IMG/VR virus record: IMGVR_UViG_3300020580_000001
Location: 18,781-82,780 of that record
DNA: 64,000 nt
From: a virus
Direction: 5' to 3' (one strand)
How positions within the stretch are numbered: the stretch's first letter is position 1; each line of letters begins with the position of its first letter. Positions 4,951 through 59,361 of this stretch are shown here, one piece after another. The position numbers were made by a program, and so were the translations under genes. The notes beneath the pieces are model-generated. The model did no database searches. It had not been told where the DNA came from and saw only the letters and a program-made list of their open reading frames with translations.

Positions 4951-6044
4951 TACGCGCCGACACGTCTTTTAGCTTCCGGCGTTGCCGGAACCGTACCGCC
5001 GGTTACGTCACCATCCTTAGCGGCCATCAAGCCAACGCCGGCGGAGATGCCCATAATAGTGGTGAGAATGTCAGCATACGGCTGCAATGACGGGATGACC
5101 TTAGCCGCCCCCGTTAACGCGGCGATGATACCAGGGATCGTGGTTTTCCAGTTTATCATTCCAAGAACTTTGTTCATTGGTTGAGTTCCTTGTGTGGTCG
5201 GTGCCGTCGGTTCGGCGGCCTTAATTTGCAAAACTGGAGGAGGCGGAGGAGGAGGGGTGAATATCTCCTCAAGTTTTGCAAAATCTGTTGCTTGCGCTTC
5301 GATCTTCGCAATTCGGATATTGATTGCGTCGCGTTGTGCAACAAGCGCATCGCGAATCGCGCCGAAATGATCGAGAATCGCCGCATCTAGCCCAGCAATC
5401 GTTGCCGATATCGTGGGAGGCCCAGCGGGCGGCGCTGGCTGGGAAGGACTTGGAGCTGGCGTTGGTGGGGGCGAGGCTGGCTGGGGCGCGGGAGGGGCTT
5501 TAAGCAGCCTTGCTTTTGCAACAACCGCCTCAGCATGGGCAATGCGATTGTCGAGGTTTGCGGTCGGCCCTAGCTTTGGCCGCTCATAGACCATCATAAA
5601 ATTAGCGGTGAGATTTGCGATTGATCTTGACCCGCCCGTCAATTGCTTGTATAGTGTTTCATACTCAGGAGTGGTTTGCAATTCATAAACAACGAAATCG
5701 CACTGTGTGCCCAAGTCGTTCAGTAATGCCCCCTTGGGTAATCCGAGACGTGTTTCAGCGCGGCCGGAAAAGGCGATATATGCAGTTTTTCGGTCGCCAA
5801 GCCATTCGGCAATTCCGCCGGATTTTAGCGCGTCTGGAACGCCGCCAGAGGCGTCTGGATGCGCACGAAACATCGTGGCAATTAGAAATTCTCCTGACTC
5901 CTGGCAAAAGTTCCCAACCGCCGCCCCCGCTCCATTCTCAATGAATCCAACAGACATAAAATGATTGAACGCCGCGATCATTGGTGCTGTAACATGAACT
6001 GTCATGATGTTGTCTAAGTCCCTGGGATGTAGAACAACATCCAT
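4950..6044 (-). CDS. endolysin (phage tail-lysozyme domain) with Pro-rich linker and membrane-like C-terminal domain
   Basis: The N-terminal domain (about 15-165) resembles the phage tail-lysozyme family: APMIAAFNHFMSVGF, then NFCQESGEF with likely catalytic Glu49, so it should cleave peptidoglycan. Two Pro-rich linkers follow (PAPQPASPPPTPAPSPSQ and FTPPPPPPPV) around a helical segment. The C-terminal 75 residues (MNKVLGMINWKTTIPGIIAALTGAAKVIP...GGTV) look like a small protein that is often separate in other phages, so this appears to be a fusion. The start at 6044 is uncertain; the ATG at 6005 is the alternative. Confidence 0.75.
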   Translation of the reverse strand: MDVVLHPRDLDNIMTVHVTAPMIAAFNHFMSVGFIENGAGAAVGNFCQESGEFLIATMFRAHPDASGGVPDALKSGGIAEWLGDRKTAYIAFSGRAETRLGLPKGALLNDLGTQCDFVVYELQTTPEYETLYKQLTGGSRSIANLTANFMMVYERPKLGPTANLDNRIAHAEAVVAKARLLKAPPAPQPASPPPTPAPSPSQPAPPAGPPTISATIAGLDAAILDHFGAIRDALVAQRDAINIRIAKIEAQATDFAKLEEIFTPPPPPPPVLQIKAAEPTAPTTQGTQPMNKVLGMINWKTTIPGIIAALTGAAKVIPSLQPYADILTTIMGISAGVGLMAAKDGDVTGGTVPATPEAKRRVGA

Positions 6045-18218: not shown

Positions 18219-19371
18219 ATGACACTTGGGTAAAAGGTGCCTCATCGAAGGCTAAAATGATATCGTTTGGCACCGGCATTAAGCCATCTCTTGCTATAGT
18301 GATCGAGACAAGCTCGAAAGTTCCGCTACCGAAACCACCGCTGAGCTGAGCCGGCATGTAGATGCGCGGAAGAAGTATCGCCGCTCCGATCGGAAGCGCA
18401 TTGATCCACGCAATTAGAGAAGCTTGGATATTTGATTGAACGACAAACGTAAATCCGACGAGTGCCCTAACGATCACATTGATTGAGATATTGATAATTT
18501 CAGGCGGGAAATATGCAATGTTATGAACGATCCCATAAGCATCTATAATCGGCGTGATTATCGATCCATATGTGGAACATGCACCTGGAGGTTTTTTAAG
18601 AGCGATCGTAGTCGCTATTGCAGTTGTATCCCCGCCATCGACTATAAACGCCACACTATGTCCGGGTAGGCCGTTCACATCCGGAAATGCCGTGTCGTTT
18701 TCATAGGCGACAATTCGATTGACATTTGGGAGTGCGGCGAGCGCGCTAATCGTTCCCTCAAGCGAGGTCTTGGAGGGAATAGCGGTCGAGATAGCCTGCC
18801 GCTGCCGCAAGGCCGCGTCGCTCTCCACAGGGGCTCCAGGAGTGGCCGCAGCGAAGAAAACAGCGCTCTGCCAGCCAAAAGATGGATTGCCTATTGTAGC
18901 GGGCCCCGCAGTCGTCGTAATGGCCCCAAGAACCGCGCATGTTGCGGTGACCGTGATTTGACCCAATGATGGAATCGTGACCAAGGTAGGGAGATTCCAC
19001 CGAACTCCGTTAATGTCCGTAACAAATCCATTGTTTATCACAGTTCCGGCTTGGCCCCCGATTATAACCGGAACTGTGCTAAAGGACGGCACTTTACGAG
19101 CTATGCCGTTTATTTTGACATTAGAGGCAAGCCCAGTCCCTTGCGCGGTAGCGGGCGAGAAAGAATTATAGACCTCGATTGCTTGATTGTTGACGTCGTC
19201 TAGAGTGAGCGCTAAGAGACCGACGAATTGACCGTCCTGAGAGTCGTTGCCAAGATATATATCGGCGCCGAAAATTGATTGGAACTGTGAGGTAAAATAC
19301 GCTAACTCTGTCGGAAAGTCCGGTTTGTGAATTCCAAATGAATCAATAAAAGCTATCGGAGTAGCGCCCAT
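18196..19371 (-). CDS. baseplate J-like protein
   Basis: 391 residues with the gpJ-like features: an N-terminal DGQFVGLLALTLDDVNNQAIEVYNS segment, APVESDAALRQRQAISTAIP, PSKTSLEGTISALAALPNVN and VAYENDT, and a C-terminal oligomer domain. It forms the wedge or periphery of the contractile-tail baseplate. It lies between the GH16 fibre and DUF2612 genes as in related phages. Confidence 0.9.
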   Translation of the reverse strand: MGATPIAFIDSFGIHKPDFPTELAYFTSQFQSIFGADIYLGNDSQDGQFVGLLALTLDDVNNQAIEVYNSFSPATAQGTGLASNVKINGIARKVPSFSTVPVIIGGQAGTVINNGFVTDINGVRWNLPTLVTIPSLGQITVTATCAVLGAITTTAGPATIGNPSFGWQSAVFFAAATPGAPVESDAALRQRQAISTAIPSKTSLEGTISALAALPNVNRIVAYENDTAFPDVNGLPGHSVAFIVDGGDTTAIATTIALKKPPGACSTYGSIITPIIDAYGIVHNIAYFPPEIINISINVIVRALVGFTFVVQSNIQASLIAWINALPIGAAILLPRIYMPAQLSGGFGSGTFELVSITIARDGLMPVPNDIILAFDEAPFTQVSFINIIVI

Positions 19372-54865: not shown

Positions 54866-55354
54866 TTACACTGGCGGGACGGCTTGCGGCGTGAAAACCG
54901 CATCGACAACATCCAGGGTGATGGCTTTTGGCGTGAGATCCATAACGATGTCGACCATCAACGCGAATGAGGTCAGCGCCGAAGTGTCGGTTACTGTGAC
55001 GGTAAGGCCGGAAGCCAGCTTAACCATTGGGGTGAGAATCAAAGCAACGGCGCCGGCCATTGGGCCGGATGGCATTGTGCCAATCGTGGCCGTTAATTTG
55101 GTGCCATCGCTAGAGAGCGCAGAAAAAATATCACCGACAGGAGCCGGAACCACGACGCCAGACGCATCGGTTACGTGGATTGCAATTGCAGCAACGGTAT
55201 CGTCCGCAAGCTCGAAATTCGCCATGAGGTTTCCATTTCTTGTGATGATTGGGAGCGCCAACACGATATGTGCTGGTTTATTCGTGGTGGTCAGAAGCGC
55301 TACGATCTTGTCGAGACTAGCGAGAAGCGCCGCCGCGAATTGCTCGACGGTCAT
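54866..55354 (-). CDS. structural protein, first gene of the minus-strand late block (162 aa)
   Basis: A helical N-terminal ~30 residues (MTVEQFAAALLASLDKIVAL) followed by a beta sandwich (ANFELADDTVAAIAIHVTDA, TKLTATIGTMPSGPMAGAVA, ASGLTVTVTDTSALTSFALM). It is divergent from the XRE repressor with a 60-base control region between. Probably virion-associated. Confidence 0.6.
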   Translation of the reverse strand: MTVEQFAAALLASLDKIVALLTTTNKPAHIVLALPIITRNGNLMANFELADDTVAAIAIHVTDASGVVVPAPVGDIFSALSSDGTKLTATIGTMPSGPMAGAVALILTPMVKLASGLTVTVTDTSALTSFALMVDIVMDLTPKAITLDVVDAVFTPQAVPPV

Positions 55355-55376
55355 GGGCTAACTCGCAATTTAATGA

Positions 55377-55406
55377 TTTACAAACGATAATCTGTTGGCG
55401 TATATA
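55377..55406 (+). promoter_or_regulatory. promoter of the XRE repressor gene, leaderless type
   Basis: TTTACA (55377-55382) and TATATA (55401-55406) are 18 bases apart. The expected start falls at about 55413, two bases before the ATG at 55415, and no ribosome site is present, reminiscent of the leaderless lambda cI message. Confidence 0.5.
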
Positions 55407-55414
55407 GGCTTATA

Positions 55415-55618
55415 ATGACACCGGAATCTCTAAGAGCCTGGCGGGAGCGTATGCGCTGGTCACAGGCGAATGCAGCGGATGCCCTCGGCCTGTCGGCCGT
55501 TGGCTACCGTGACTATGAAAAGGGCAAGCCTCTCAAGGGAGCAAAACCGCGGTCAATCCCAAAAACCGTCGCGCTTGCCTGCGCCGCAATCACGCATCGA
55601 ATACCGCCAGAGGAATAA
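55415..55618 (+). CDS. XRE-family helix-turn-helix regulator (67 aa)
   Basis: ESLRAWRERMRWSQANAADA LGLSAVGYRDYEKGKPLKGA is a complete Cro/cI-type HTH (residues 4-42). At 67 residues it is DNA-binding domain only, so it is Cro-sized. It lies between the two divergent blocks and directly upstream of an operator-like palindrome and the early promoter. Confidence 0.8.
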   Translation: MTPESLRAWRERMRWSQANAADALGLSAVGYRDYEKGKPLKGAKPRSIPKTVALACAAITHRIPPEE

Positions 55619-55632
55619 GGCTTATGGTCAAG

Positions 55633-55647
55633 TTTATGTTACATAAA
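55633..55647. promoter_or_regulatory. operator-like palindrome
   Basis: TTTATGT (55633-55639), one central base, and ACATAAA (55641-55647) form a perfect 7-1-7 palindrome between the XRE gene and the early promoter. Size and place fit a binding site for a dimeric XRE regulator. Confidence 0.5.
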
Positions 55648-55682
55648 GTGATAATTAATTTGTAGAAATATGCAATTACCTC

Positions 55683-55711
55683 TTGACTTCCTGCAACTAA
55701 TGTCCTATATT
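55683..55711 (+). promoter_or_regulatory. strong early promoter
   Basis: TTGACT (55683-55688), 17-base spacer, TATATT (55706-55711). The predicted start at about 55718 gives a ~155-base leader without ATG (rich in GGCC and CCCGGG) before the first small gene. It should transcribe the whole plus-strand early chain. Confidence 0.65.
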
Positions 55712-55873
55712 GTGATTATAGACAGAGACGAGCCCGGGCTTCCGGCTAAAGGAGCAAAAACCCCAACTGAGGCCGGTAAGACAGGCCCAGAGAGCCCCGC
55801 AAAAGCTAAGAAGCGAGAAGCGAGAGAAAGAAACAAGCTTTGCTAGGCCGCCAAGCTATGGAGGAGAACGAAA

Positions 55874-56050
55874 ATGGCATTCACCGGAACATCCAAGGGA
55901 AAACTAGAGCCCTTAACTCACGAAGGAAAAATCATCAGATATACGAGGAAGCTTGCGGAAGCCCGCAACAACAACAAACCGGAAATGATCGCGCTGTTCG
56001 AGAGACAGCTCGCCGAACTTACAAGCCGCGAAAAGATCAAAAGCAAATGA
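55874..56050 (+). CDS. first early gene, small helical protein (58 aa)
   Basis: GAGGAGAACGAAA precedes the ATG. MAFTGTSKGKLEPLTHEGKI is followed by a basic helical body. Another reading frame over the same bases is open for longer but lacks a ribosome site. The same GGAGAACGAAA leader recurs before later early genes. Confidence 0.6.
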   Translation: MAFTGTSKGKLEPLTHEGKIIRYTRKLAEARNNNKPEMIALFERQLAELTSREKIKSK

Positions 56051-56128
56051 GCCCAACCCACGGCGGCCTAGCAAAGCTTGGATTTCTCAACCAAGCCTAA
56101 CAGTAAGCCAAACTAAGGGAGAACGAAA

Positions 56129-56374
56129 ATGGCTGACTATTACCTGACAACGGACCATTCCGCATCCAGCTATGGCATGCCAGTGCTTGTTGATCCATCA
56201 ACGGGAACGGCATATGGCCCAGCCGATAAATTGCCGGATGATGTTACAAGCGCCCCATCAGCATGGGACTATGTGTGGCGCAAGCAGGATGCTGGCAGAT
56301 ACGCATGGCTCGATGAAGTTAGCAACAATACAGAAGCATCTAATATGGCTGCCAAGTTTTTGGCAATCAAATGA
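56129..56374 (+). CDS. early small protein (81 aa)
   Basis: AAGGGAGAACGAAA then ATG. MADYYLTTDHSASSYGMPVL followed by a Tyr/Trp-rich, acidic protein (SAPSAWDYVWRKQDAGRYAW). Function unknown. Its stop codon is the first part of intergenic element A. Confidence 0.65.
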   Translation: MADYYLTTDHSASSYGMPVLVDPSTGTAYGPADKLPDDVTSAPSAWDYVWRKQDAGRYAWLDEVSNNTEASNMAAKFLAIK

Positions 56375-56440
56375 CCCTTCGAAGCGCGACCTTACGGGGC
56401 CGCGTCACGAAAGGCCAAGACAAACCAAGGGAGAACGAGA
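56372..56440 (+). ncRNA. structured intergenic element A (minimal copy)
   Basis: Begins with the upstream stop in TGACCCTTC and continues directly with GAAGCG, so CTTC and GAAG touch without the variable hairpin seen in the other copies. The ATGCGCGGATA and GCTTCACC boxes are absent. It is the simplest member of the family and may be degenerate. Confidence 0.45.
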
Positions 56441-56608
56441 ATGACGGAACAAGACGCCCACCGAGCCGTCGAATGGTACAAAGAACATAAACGGCATGTT
56501 GAACGGCTAATCAAAGAAGCGCGTGGAAAATTTGAACCAAGTGGCTCCGATGCTATACGGCCGGAGCTTTGGAAAGCAGAACATTGGTTCTGGTTCCTGA
56601 CCAAATGA
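56441..56608 (+). CDS. early small protein (55 aa)
   Basis: AAGGGAGAACGAGA precedes the ATG at 56441. MTEQDAHRAVEWYKEHKRHV then a basic helix and a Trp-rich end (AEHWFWFLTK). Its stop is the start of element B. Function unknown. Confidence 0.6.
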   Translation: MTEQDAHRAVEWYKEHKRHVERLIKEARGKFEPSGSDAIRPELWKAEHWFWFLTK

Positions 56609-56714
56609 CCCTTCCCCATCGGGGCTTAACCTCCCCGATCCAGAAGCGCCAGACGGAGCTAAGACAACATACCGTCTGTCTGGGTTGCCCAGGGCTTTAG
56701 ACTGGTGCTTCACC
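56606..56714 (+). ncRNA. structured intergenic element B
   Basis: The stop-overlapping TGACCCTTC is followed by a TCGGGG/CCCCGA hairpin (56619-56638), then GAAGCG (56643-56648), a CAGACGG/CCGTCTG hairpin (56650-56678) and GCTTCACC (56707-56714). CTTC-GAAG closes the first hairpin; GAAGC can alternatively pair with GCTTC. The core box is shortened to CCAGACGGAGC. Confidence 0.55.
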
Positions 56715-56752
56715 TTCCCCGCGCCTCGGGGTTTCAGGGGCAGAGAACGAAA

Positions 56753-57001
56753 ATGGTAAATCATCCAAATAGAAGCAGCCAATTTAAGTCTCAACGGGAA
56801 CCTGAATTCCATCTCCAGCACTTCGGTCCTTGCGAGCCACATTGGCCTAAAGGCGGCTGGTCTATTTACCAAATCACGGGGGATGAAATAGCCCAGCGCA
56901 TCACATTCGATATAACCGGAAAGGTAGTTCGCCGCGATTCTTGGTGTGGCTATATCGGCATTTTCGAAACGTTGCCGGAAGTCATGGAGGCTATGCAATG
57001 A
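56753..57001 (+). CDS. early small protein (82 aa)
   Basis: AGAGAACGAAA then ATG at 56753. A soluble protein (SQREPEFHLQHFGPCEPHWP, GWSIYQITGDEIAQRITFDI, TGKVVRRDSWCGYIGIFETL) of alpha/beta type. Two Cys. The start of the next gene overlaps its stop (ATGA). Confidence 0.6.
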   Translation: MVNHPNRSSQFKSQREPEFHLQHFGPCEPHWPKGGWSIYQITGDEIAQRITFDITGKVVRRDSWCGYIGIFETLPEVMEAMQ

Positions 57002-57306
57002 CCCAGTTTCACGAAGGCCAGGATGTAGAGGTTTGGAAAGAAGTCCGCACTCGCGGAACTGACCTTCACCAAAACTACGTTCGCCGCTGGTGCAAGGCGA
57101 AGATCGTTTATGCGCTAAAAGAAACACCAAGATATCTTGTCCAATTCCCAGAGCCCAACGGCAAATATGACGTTGACGGAACCCGCGCCGTATTCGACGC
57201 GGAGCATATCCGGGCGGTAGAGCGTGACATCGGCTTGCCTGATTATGCCCTCGATGATCGCCAATGGTGCGACCGGTGGAATAGGCGGATAGGGGAAACC
57301 ACATGA
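56998..57306 (+). CDS. MTQF-family small protein 1 (102 aa)
   Basis: MTQFHEGQDVEVWKEVRTRG ... RRWCKAKIVYALKETPRYLV QFPEPN...TRAVFDAEHIRAV is one of three paralogues in this region. The shared pattern MTQF..GQ.VEV ... A.KIV .... Y.VQFPD.SRAVFDA.HIR suggests an SH3/Tudor-like small beta-barrel, a fold often used to bind RNA or protein. Function unknown. Confidence 0.65.
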   Translation: MTQFHEGQDVEVWKEVRTRGTDLHQNYVRRWCKAKIVYALKETPRYLVQFPEPNGKYDVDGTRAVFDAEHIRAVERDIGLPDYALDDRQWCDRWNRRIGETT

Positions 57307-57353
57307 CCCGCCGTTCAATCGAGTCCATCTACTTGTTGCCAACAAAAGACTGA
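57303..57353 (+). CDS. 16-codon frame ending at element C
   Basis: ATG at 57303 overlaps the upstream stop (ATGA) and has GGGGAAA upstream. It encodes MTRRSIESIYLLPTKD and ends at the TGA of the TGACCCTTC that opens element C, just as whole genes end at elements A, B and E. It could be a leader peptide whose translation affects the element. Confidence 0.35.
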   Translation: MTRRSIESIYLLPTKD

Positions 57354-57475
57354 CCCTTCGACACTGGCGGTTTCGGCCGCCAGCACGAAGCGCCAGAAAT
57401 GGAGCCGCACGCGAAGCCTGCAACGGCTAGCTCACATGGCTTAAATGCGCGGATAGTGGCCCGCGCCGCTTCACC
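57351..57475 (+). ncRNA. structured intergenic element C
   Basis: TGACCCTTCG, hairpin CTGGCGG/CCGCCAG (57364-57383), core GAAGCGCCAGAAATGGAGC (57387-57405), ATGCGCGGATA (about 57445-57455), hairpin GCGCGG/CCGCGC, CGCTTCACC (57467-57475). CTTCG-CGAAG closes the first hairpin; GAAGCG (57387-57392) is also complementary to CGCTTC (57467-57472). The two pairings exclude each other. Confidence 0.65.
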
Positions 57476-57499
57476 TAAACACAACAAAAAGGAAACCTA

Positions 57500-57865
57500 A
57501 TGCGTAAAATACTTCTTGCGACACTAACATTCACGGCCTTGGCTTTTCCAGCATTGGCCAAGAATACCATGGTTATGGTTAATCTATCCGGCGTCGTCAA
57601 ATCTTCCGGCGCCAATGCAGCATCAACAATAGTTAATGTTGGGGTTGTGGATCTTATCGCGACCGGCAACCACGTTGACGTCTATAATCCTATTACTCAC
57701 TCCTTGATACCAGCCCTTAGCGGCGTTGTCGTGCCTCTTGGAACGATATCCGATATGGTGTTTAATGCTCCTGCATTTTTAACGGTTCAAGGCGCGGGTC
57801 CGTTTGCGGTAACTATCGATTACTCGACAGTTCCGCCAACTGTTGGACCGGCGGTTTCGCTCTAA
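57500..57865 (+). CDS. exported early protein (121 aa)
   Basis: AAAAAGGAAACCTA precedes the ATG. Signal peptide MRKILLATLTFTALAFPALA, then a beta-rich mature part (NLSGVVKSSGANAASTIVNV, FNAPAFLTVQGAGPFAVTID). An exported protein among early cytosolic genes is unusual; envelope modification or exclusion is possible. Confidence 0.6.
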   Translation: MRKILLATLTFTALAFPALAKNTMVMVNLSGVVKSSGANAASTIVNVGVVDLIATGNHVDVYNPITHSLIPALSGVVVPLGTISDMVFNAPAFLTVQGAGPFAVTIDYSTVPPTVGPAVSL

Positions 57866-57867
57866 TT

Positions 57868-57978
57868 TGACATTTCTTCTGCGGACCGGTGCAAGCCAGC
57901 CCGCACGAGAAGCGCCAGAAATGGAGCTGTCTGCCAATGGCGGAAGAATGCGCGGATATAACGCCCGCACCGCTTCAC
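57868..57978 (+). ncRNA. structured intergenic element D
   Basis: TTGACATTTCTTCT, GCGG...CCGC hairpin with CTTCT-AGAAG closure, the same 19-base core GAAGCGCCAGAAATGGAGC as element C (57909-57927), ATGCGCGGATA, a TGCG(C)GG/CCCGCA hairpin with one bulge, and CGCTTCACC (57971-57979). Here the upstream stop is TAA, a few bases before the element. Confidence 0.6.
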
Positions 57979-57998
57979 CTAAATCAGGAGGAATGAAC

Positions 57999-58205
57999 AT
58001 GACCCAGTTTAACGAAGGCCAAGAAGTTGAGGTCTTAACCGACCCAGCATTCCCGCGCGGGACGTTTGCATGGCGCAAGGCGAAGATCGTCGCGCCGACC
58101 ATGCACACACATCGCGAACTTTATACCGTCCAATTCCCCGACAACTCCCGCGCCGTGTTCGACGCGGCTCATATACGGAGCACACCATTCTGGAGCACAC
58201 CATGA
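57999..58205 (+). CDS. MTQF-family small protein 2 (68 aa)
   Basis: ATG at 57999 seven bases after AGGAGG (an ATG two codons earlier is too close to the ribosome site). MTQFNEGQEVEVLTDPAFPR ... FAWRKAKIVAP ... YTVQFPDNSRAVFDAAHIRS is the shortest of the three paralogues. Coupled to paralogue 3 by ATGA. Confidence 0.65.
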   Translation: MTQFNEGQEVEVLTDPAFPRGTFAWRKAKIVAPTMHTHRELYTVQFPDNSRAVFDAAHIRSTPFWSTP

Positions 58206-58564
58206 CCCAATTTCACAAAGGCCAGGAGGTTGAGGTTTTCAAGCCGTACTTTGACGAAACCCGCACGATTGAGGCGTCAACACGATGCGACTGGCGCGGC
58301 GCAAAAATCGTGGAGATAGGATTGCGCAGCTACCCGGTGCTGGGCAAAATGGATAGGCAATGGAAGCCTGCCAAGTTCGTTGTCCAATTCCCAGACGGCT
58401 CACGCGCCGTGTTCGATGCGGAGCATGTCCGCTTATCGAAAGAGCAAGTCGAGCAAGAGTTGGCCGACAATGGACAGCGATTCGTTGACTCGATGAGCCG
58501 CGCCAAGAAAGTCGCACACGATCTTGGCGAAGGACTCATGGGCCGCGGAAAATATGCAGACTGA
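58202..58564 (+). CDS. MTQF-family small protein 3 (120 aa)
   Basis: MTQFHKGQEVEVFKPYFDET ... DWRGAKIVEIG ... FVVQFPDGSRAVFDAEHVRL followed by a helical C-terminal extension (DSMSRAKKVAHDLGEGLMGR). It shares the small beta domain with paralogues 1 and 2. Its stop is the TGA of element E. Confidence 0.65.
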   Translation: MTQFHKGQEVEVFKPYFDETRTIEASTRCDWRGAKIVEIGLRSYPVLGKMDRQWKPAKFVVQFPDGSRAVFDAEHVRLSKEQVEQELADNGQRFVDSMSRAKKVAHDLGEGLMGRGKYAD

Positions 58565-58692
58565 CCCTTCGGCATGTAGCGAGCCTGACCAGGCAGGCGT
58601 GAGAGCGCTACATTGCGAAGCGCCAGAAATGGGGCCGAGGCCTCGACAAATGCGCGGATACACCAGCGAGGATGGCCCGCGACGCTTCACCC
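58562..58692 (+). ncRNA. structured intergenic element E
   Basis: TGACCCTTCGG, a long nested hairpin (ATGTAGCG/CGCTACAT with GCCTG/CAGGC inside), CGAAG closure, core GAAGCGCCAGAAATGGGGC (58617-58635), ATGCGCGGATA (about 58650-58660), CGCGG/CCGCG hairpin, CGCTTCACC (58683-58691). The sequences of the hairpins differ from C and D while pairing is kept. Confidence 0.65.
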
Positions 58693-58694
58693 CA

Positions 58695-58756
58695 CCGGAC
58701 CGCTGCAATATGCGGACACCGCATGCTGCACTGCTAGCCGCGTTGCAGCGGTCCGG
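58695..58756 (+). repeat. 14-bp perfect hairpin upstream of a ribosome site
   Basis: CCGGACCGCTGCAA (58695-58708) pairs exactly with 58743-58756. Inside it ATGCGG-ACA-CCGCAT (58710-58724) forms a second stem. It ends only nine bases before AAAGGAGG of the next gene, so it could insulate that ribosome site or stabilise a processed 5' end. Confidence 0.65.
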
Positions 58757-58774
58757 AATTAAAAAGGAGGATTA

Positions 58775-58987
58775 ATGCAACAGGCAGTTACACGCCTAAA
58801 GGCCGGAACGCTCGCGGCCACCACCGAAACCATCGAGCTAAACGACGTCGAGACGGACCTGGAAAAGGCCCGCTTCGATCACCAGGCCAAGCTTTTTGCG
58901 CTCCAGCAGGAGTTCAACGGAAAGCGCGACAAGCTACGGCAGGAATACCACGAACGTGTTCAGGCAATTACGGGAGATTCAGCGTAA
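58775..58987 (+). CDS. coiled-coil early protein (70 aa)
   Basis: Strong AAAGGAGG upstream. ETIELNDVETDLEKARFDHQ then AKLFALQQEFNGKRDKLRQE, a long heptad-like helix. Probably dimeric. Function unknown. Confidence 0.6.
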   Translation: MQQAVTRLKAGTLAATTETIELNDVETDLEKARFDHQAKLFALQQEFNGKRDKLRQEYHERVQAITGDSA

Positions 58988-59098
58988 TTGACTGGAGATC
59001 TTTGGGTAGATTACTTGCCGCAACGCCTCATCTTATACGCCGCGGCTTTTTGTATTGGCGCAGCGTTGACGGCAATTTATTTTCTCTGGCATAATTAA
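58988..59098 (+). CDS. 36-residue membrane peptide
   Basis: TTG start directly after the upstream stop (TAATTG). MTGDLWVDYLPQRLILYAAA then FCIGAALTAIYFLWHN, one membrane span. Translation would depend on coupling, since the ribosome site is weak. Confidence 0.45.
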   Translation: MTGDLWVDYLPQRLILYAAAFCIGAALTAIYFLWHN

Positions 59099-59102
59099 CT
59101 CA

Positions 59103-59131
59103 GCGGGACGACGTTCACAGCGTCGCCCCGC
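59103..59131. terminator. hairpin between convergent early and replication blocks
   Basis: GCGGG-CGACG pairs with CGTCG-CCCGC with one A-C mismatch. There is no T-run. It lies between plus- and minus-strand gene ends, where a bidirectional terminator is expected. Confidence 0.5.
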
Positions 59132-59151
59132 CTATATGGCACCTACTTGAA

Positions 59152-59361
59152 TTACCGCGAAAGCTTACGAAAGTCAAACGGCTCTTTCTCAAGCCGCGCC
59201 TCGACATTCGCATCAGAAGCGCCAGCTTGTCCGAGGTAATGCGCCAATATTCCATCTTGCATACAGCCAGGACCTTCGGCTTCGATGATCTTAAGCGAAT
59301 CGCGCATGGCTAAATTGAGAATATGCCGCTCTTCTCGCGTAAGGTGCCGTGCCGCTACCAT
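59152..59361 (-). CDS. small helical protein (69 aa)
   Basis: I use the ATG at 59361 (MVAARHLTREERHILNLAMR), which overlaps the stop of the membrane-anchored gene upstream by seven bases. A longer reading to 59397 would overlap it by 43. Helical, acidic. Function unknown. Confidence 0.5.
   Translation of the reverse strand: MVAARHLTREERHILNLAMRDSLKIIEAEGPGCMQDGILAHYLGQAGASDANVEARLEKEPFDFRKLSR

Follow-up and report, generated by a model that had tools for sequence, protein, structure and literature searches.

The window analysed here is a 64-kb stretch (positions 18,781 to 82,780) of the 82,780-base IMG/VR virus record IMGVR_UViG_3300020580_000001. Its structural genes lie mostly on the minus strand, and an HTH gene at 55415 is followed by a run of small plus-strand genes. 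Five repeated elements, A to E, stand between these genes, and an initial annotation made from the DNA letters described them as a structured family in which each member has two mutually exclusive pairings. Covariation over about two dozen virus records supports such a family, with two predicted pairings that compete for one shared strand.

Each unit begins with TGA, followed by a first strand S1 (NYTTCG), a variable hairpin X, a second strand S2 (CGAAGCG), a domain Y and a third strand S3 (CGCTTCAC). After S3 there are usually about 20 nt, including a Shine-Dalgarno (SD) sequence, and then the next start. S2 is shared by the two pairings; with S1 it forms the hairpin H1, and with S3 the helix P1. 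The consensus can be written as TGAC-N-Y-TTCG, a short internal loop, the variable stem X, an internal loop, CGAAGCGCC, Y and (C)GCTTCAC; the sequences of the internal loop that separates S1:S2 from X sort into classes that recur. In C, D, E and their relatives, Y consists of CCA-GNRA-TGG (helix P2), RGC, a variable P3 region, AAT, helix P4 (CGCGG/CCGCG) and a final A, while other copies hold a few-base loop (GAAGC-GCCAAT-GCTTC) or a different interior inside the same closing strands. There is also a second sequence class, TGACGCTAGCC ... CACGAGCGCC ... GCTCGAA, of which the 3.7-kb locus L313 holds six copies. Of the 57 H1 elements, 43 have an exact 5-base S3 no more than 90 nt 3' of S2; at random positions the figure is 14%.

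Two covariance models describe the family. R1 was built from 25 cores with a hand-drawn structure of helices P1, P2 and P4, and C, D and E helped to train it; R2 models the 5' hairpin H1 and was built from 40 sequences, namely C and 39 copies from other viruses. The elements in the window, with the evidence for each in brackets, are:

56372..56416, plus strand: element A, H1 only, with S1 CCTTCG, a variant S2 (CGAAAGG) and no S3 (R2, E 4e-5)
56606..56650, plus strand: element B, H1, with S1 CTTC at 56611-56614 and S2 GAAGCG at 56643-56648 (R2, E 2e-8)
56643..56714, plus strand: element B, alternative interior closed by GAAGCGCCAG / CTGGTGCTTC, ending in CACC (sequence; S3 5-mer present)
57351..57394, plus strand: element C, H1 (R2, 55.2 bits, C being in the R2 training set)
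57387..57473, plus strand: element C, core domain, with P1 (GAAGCG 57387-57392 / CGCTTC 57467-57472), P2, P3 and P4 (R1, 67.0 bits; fold)
57868..57916, plus strand: element D, H1, with the shifted arm CTTCT:AGAAG (R2, E 0.02; sequence)
57909..57977, plus strand: element D, core domain (R1, 72.9 bits)
58562..58624, plus strand: element E, H1 (R2, E 4e-6)
58617..58689, plus strand: element E, core domain (R1, 67.9 bits)
58695..58756, plus strand: extra hairpin directly 3' of element E, AATATGCGGACA...GCTAGCCGC within a variable stem (fold)

B to E are confirmed much as first described, as is the shared core of C, D and E (GAAGCGCCAGAAATGG(A/G)GC ... ATGCGCGGATA ... CGCTTCACC); the description needs amending in that A is H1 only, the interior of B is different and the 5' arm of D is shifted. 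The GAAGCG adjoining the CTTC of A is part of its 5' arm and not S2; the variant S2 of A is also seen in G012 (L302:7751) and at L312:4501. Since A has no S3, it does not have the two alternative pairings attributed to every element, while B keeps S1, S2 and S3, and C to E pair as noted. The TGA of B (56606-56608) is the stop codon of the open reading frame (ORF) 56441-56608, that of C (57351-57353) ends a 16-codon ORF (57303-57353), and that of E (58562-58564) is again the stop of the upstream ORF; the gene upstream of D stops at TAA (57863-57865).

R1 gives C, D and E 67-73 bits, and the next best site in the window has 11 bits. Each of the 15 records scanned end to end likewise has R1 copies, with E reaching 1e-18; most of these copies were in the training set as well. 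R2 recovers A, B, D and E, all of which were left out of its training, and among 95 other viral loci used as controls (0.89 Mb) it matched only L254, twice, at sites that both read as true members. The core and its downstream parts are also present in other IMG/VR contigs, and about two dozen IMG/VR virus records, counting G005 and G006 with their near-identical region, carry the family; this collection was built by stepwise widening of patterns from the window's sequence, so that the sampling was not random and the count is a minimum. None of the records is annotated, and many are fragments. Chance repeats had been kept in view initially; the family is far from chance. Where the element lists require TGAC at the start, its conservation is by construction. 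Among the cores found without this condition, the tandem copies and the first copy in L019 have no TGAC, and the other copies shown carry TGAC and S1 upstream. One candidate, L317, was rejected as a chance pattern match.

The strongest support for the pairings comes from the X stem, where both sides have changed in 7/7 pairs across viruses. This count is from alignment A3, which holds 40 of 50 hairpins of at most 60 nt; the ten omitted include the atypical B and D and a TTAAGCG copy, so the percentage paired in A3 is somewhat flattering. The covariation score of the whole of H1 is 0.43; shuffles give 0.15 +/- 0.02, and slid registers do not exceed 0.16. P1 has double changes in 4/6 pairs (in L229 it reads GGGGTG/CACCCC) and P4 in 3/5. 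The S2:S3 pairing is 94.7% paired, with 3/6 pairs covarying and a score of 0.22 vs 0.11; both S1:S2 and S2:S3 exceed shuffles, S1:S2 more weakly. In alignment A2, the S1, S2 and S3 segments were cut and registered by hand, with D and B shifted to fit. For all these helices, many of the double changes come from three related sequence classes, and the shuffle statistics ignore relatedness. In 39/39 copies, H1 also has a more stable predicted fold than dinucleotide shuffles (mean z -3.8). G-U pairs outnumber A-C in X stems by 20 to 7 when scored alike (P = 0.02, for related sequences), by 28 to 14 in A3 and by 6 to 1 in A2, which favours pairing in the sense-strand RNA.

The elements are closely fitted to the genes around them. 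In 25 of 42 elements the upstream stop is exactly the TGA of the element, and in a frame control this TGA closes an ORF 50 codons long or longer in 23/39 elements, versus 4/39 and 1/39 in the other frames. S1 sits at a near-fixed distance after the TGA. On the other side, the downstream start lies 13-28 nt past the element in 24 of the 34 elements with a called downstream gene, the gene caller having required a Shine-Dalgarno for these starts. Tandem copies occur in L041, L079 and L229. In L313, at about 2266-2060 on the minus strand, S2 and the GCTCGAA (S3) further on are separated by around 150 nt containing a short ORF, which looks as though a joint between genes had taken up a small gene.

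Three related phages share small genes in differing order, with an element at most joints (one has decayed in G008): MRRYL-LTKE-MTIRI-MTVSANP in G004, MTIRI-MRRYL-LTKE-MTAPE in G008 and MTIRI-LTKE-MSHND in G010. One distinctive long X precedes a full core in G004, a minimal loop in G008 and another Y in G006. From these gene orders, and from the presence of one X beside three Ys, it follows that X, Y and genes were recombined where the strands are shared. The proposal that the elements form a recombination boundary that spreads cassettes therefore fits the pattern of gene orders and of X/Y exchange at S2; that the elements cause the recombination is something we infer rather than show.

Other features on or near the elements are:

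55683..55711, plus strand: promoter-like site TTGACT-17-TATATT upstream of the small-gene run (consensus scan)
56998-57306, 57999-58205 and 58202-58564: three paralogous SH3/Agenet-like proteins (MTQFxEGQEVEV...VFDAxHIR; weak Pfam match), with further examples in L293, L294, L295, L298, L072 and L303
58695-58756: member of a second repeated hairpin family, directly 3' of some elements in four viruses, with a variable outer stem around GCGGACA..GCAT..GC..CTAGCCGC; the others are at L022 10306 (minus strand), L229 ~5640-5710 and L230 1741-1769
L295:4972, L072:5263 (minus strand), L297:7141 and L314:5300 (minus strand): long X hairpin with GAGGCATTGCTTGGATG(A/T)GAAGGGGAA...CCCGAGGCACAAACCAAG, nearly identical in these four viruses

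The region of the second hairpin in the window (58691-58765) has a predicted fold of -40 kcal/mol, and its relatives in L022, L229 and L230 likewise follow elements. The long, near-identical X hairpin may be an inserted structured domain in its own right. The site at 55683 and one at 59066 are the only promoter-like sites on the plus strand of 55300-59200 in a scan restricted to the sigma-70 consensus, and none lies inside an element; an equal number of sites of this quality is expected by chance in the region. In L313, the element-bearing genes are preceded by a promoter and leader similar to the window's 55683 site. No T-run terminator-like site was found on the coding strand of 55300-59200, although stem-loops are present. 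A long inverted repeat, 55834-55852 / 56062-56080 (CAAGCTTTGCTAGGCCGCC / GGCGGCCTAGCAAAGCTTG), encloses the gene that opens the small-gene run, and L313 has a like arrangement of different sequence at about 2695 and 2575 (minus strand), again after a similar promoter and leader.

What might such elements do? We tentatively favour the view, which could well be mistaken, that they are modular RNA joints between genes in polycistronic phage mRNAs, insulating the next ribosome-binding site. Each joint would fold on its own as a spacer, so that the next gene's ribosome-binding site is unaffected by whichever gene precedes it. S1 has a near-fixed position just after the stop, where a ribosome in the act of terminating would presumably cover it and leave P1 free to form; once the ribosome departs, H1 could re-form, and upstream translation may thus remodel the joint. 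S1, S2 and S3 are common to the joints, so that X, Y and entire gene cassettes would change places when these short repeats recombine. The SD is also equally open in both folds, with the SD/start region unpaired at 0.61 in H1 and 0.63 in P1 (16 elements, folding model), as an insulator would predict.

However, several observations count against insulating joints. The equal exposure of the SD is a null result from a folding model and fits no role in translation just as well, and insulation alone leaves the high sequence conservation of Y unaccounted for. S3 or an in-frame TGA is missing from some elements. The S1:S2 clamp is 85.7% paired, with double changes in 2/7 pairs and one pair open in about half of the copies, and P2 covaries in 0/3 pairs. 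The core (Y) domain on its own beats shuffles modestly (mean z -1.7), and G-U and A-C stand at 5 to 5 in P1, P2 and P4 (alignment A1). The compensatory change suspected at first in the five copies is, across viruses, strong in the X stem, good in P1 and P4, weaker in S1:S2 and not found in P2.

Recognition of the elements by a protein or nuclease is a less probable but serious alternative. The H1 internal loop and the conserved parts of Y (CCAGAAATGG, AATGCGCGGAT, GCCCGCGA) would then be sites at which a phage or host factor processes, stabilises or regulates the polycistronic mRNA; the same site at all joints would allow coordinated control. The sequence of Y is conserved beyond the needs of pairing, the loop classes recur, and the small SH3/Agenet-like proteins lie near elements in 7 records and in none of 0.55 Mb of other viral loci. 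However, the Agenet match falls under Pfam's curated cut-off, most element-bearing records examined show no such protein in the stretches searched, and many joints have no Y domain. This last point bears also on a regulatory switch (riboswitch, attenuator or thermosensor), in which a ligand, the ribosome's position or the temperature would pick H1 or P1 and set downstream expression, because Y is the sole candidate ligand domain. The initial suggestion of a switch-like RNA has held up only insofar as the two exclusive pairings sharing S2 differ by no more than a few kcal/mol in most cases (the G004:3846 entry in this comparison rests on a wrong S3). In trp-type transcription attenuators, too, a middle strand pairs upstream or downstream (1:2 vs 2:3) and a ribosome may block the first strand; the S1-S2-S3 order is similar, and S1 is where a terminating ribosome would sit. 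Unlike these attenuators, the elements have no terminator in the 2:3 form and no leader peptide with regulatory codons, and they recur at many joints. An SD-occlusion switch was rejected, as the folding model showed no effect of the fold on the SD. With the SD and start equally exposed, and neither a promoter nor a coding-strand terminator in the elements, no standard riboswitch output is seen, and no shared function is recognised among the flanking genes; we consider a switch quite unlikely. The put antitermination RNA of phage HK022 is a cis-acting RNA of the early transcript with two adjacent hairpins that form together, a few per genome. Our elements resemble it as phage RNA with two adjacent hairpins, but here the hairpins compete and lie between the stop and start of many genes; a literature search for put RNA gave no match.

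The inverted repeats may instead act as DNA, as a cruciform or recombinase target, or as a small mobile element spread by insertion after stop codons with no role in RNA. Short repeats common to shuffled joints, one X with three Y domains and the tandem copies would all suit this, and the single orientation relative to genes could reflect an insertion bias. Yet compensatory changes in X and P1, together with the coding-strand excess of G-U over A-C in X (modest, and from related sequences), speak for RNA, and tight spacing to the downstream start is unexpected for indifferent insertion; on balance this explanation seems unlikely. It is very improbable that the elements are cassettes of promoter and terminator that end one transcript and start the next, like the promoter early stem-loops (PeSLs) of T4-type phages. 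An excerpt of PMC4503421 describes PeSLs as composites of promoter and stem-loop (terminator), citing earlier PeSL work (Arbiol 2010, Comeau 2014). The T4 setting matches ours, in that repeated stem-loops lie between small early genes and are tied to the modular shuffling of those genes (PMC4503421, same excerpt). Unlike the PeSLs of that excerpt, our elements hold no early promoter (sigma-70 consensus) and no coding-strand terminator, and a single promoter-like site precedes the entire run. The three-strand pairing shared through S2, the exchangeable Y and the built-in stop codon do not appear in the excerpt's account of PeSLs. PeSLs and the Start-Associated Sequences (SAS) and ESAS of Cluster K mycobacteriophages are the nearest phage precedents found, and differ in promoter content or in lacking arm covariation. 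SAS has an invariant sequence of 13 bp next to the start codon, and ESAS (extended SAS) are inverted repeats with little support as mRNA hairpins and with SigA-like promoters inside (PMC3203893, PMC11373665). Like our elements, they are repeated in a single orientation just 5' of the starts of many small genes, sometimes overlapping the upstream stop (PMC3203893, PMC11373665). In our elements, by contrast, the arms differ between copies through changes that compensate one another, and there is no sign of a promoter. The 13-bp SAS (GGGATAGGAGCCC) adjoining the start codon is absent from the S3-to-start sequences, and 17-bp imperfect inverted repeats of conserved sequence, as in ESAS, were not found; X arms vary freely and covary.

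We also looked for the elements more widely. No Rfam 15 family matched the window at the gathering threshold (a relaxed E-value gave only a chance miRNA match), no Rfam self-cleaving ribozyme matched the elements, and to our knowledge they resemble no such ribozyme. BLASTN gave no usable match for the region or its relatives among isolated phages, which at BLAST sensitivity does not prove absence. Among isolated phages, Tunturiibacter phage Tunturi_4 has the best match of the window's terminase-like protein, at about 30% identity; R1 had no match in Tunturi_4, and H1 was not found in the fetched stretches of CcrColossus and Lumi. A literature string search for the core sequence gave no match. 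Among bacteria, R1 had no match in 399 Acidobacteriota genomes or in 398 genomes of the order of a Bosea genome, nor had R2 in 385 genomes of the class of the latter, weak negatives in which 12-17 candidates per genome were scored without a positive control. Two weak R2 matches among 369 genomes of the class of a Rhodoferax genome were rejected, as they look like coding sequence. There were at least 118 exact 16-mer matches in genome contigs, with no downstream core parts among the matches listed, and many viral 16-mer matches sit in one unrelated repeated context. Elsewhere in the window, ARAGORN called a tRNA-like gene at 204-276, with an unreadable two-base anticodon.

The elements might represent a previously undescribed class of intercistronic RNA that responds to ribosomes, although we regard this as doubtful. 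Such a plug-in joint, an equally doubtful construct, would combine a stop codon, an exchangeable hairpin, a three-strand exchange, an optional Y domain and a ribosome site, so that recombined small genes keep their own translation context. Phage early regions turn over small genes fast, and how genes are swapped without upsetting the expression of their neighbours is an open question. Finding the same folded RNA at gene joints on about two dozen environmental records makes this question testable by simple reporters, and R1 and R2 together can serve as a marker with which to pick out early regions of this kind in metagenomes.

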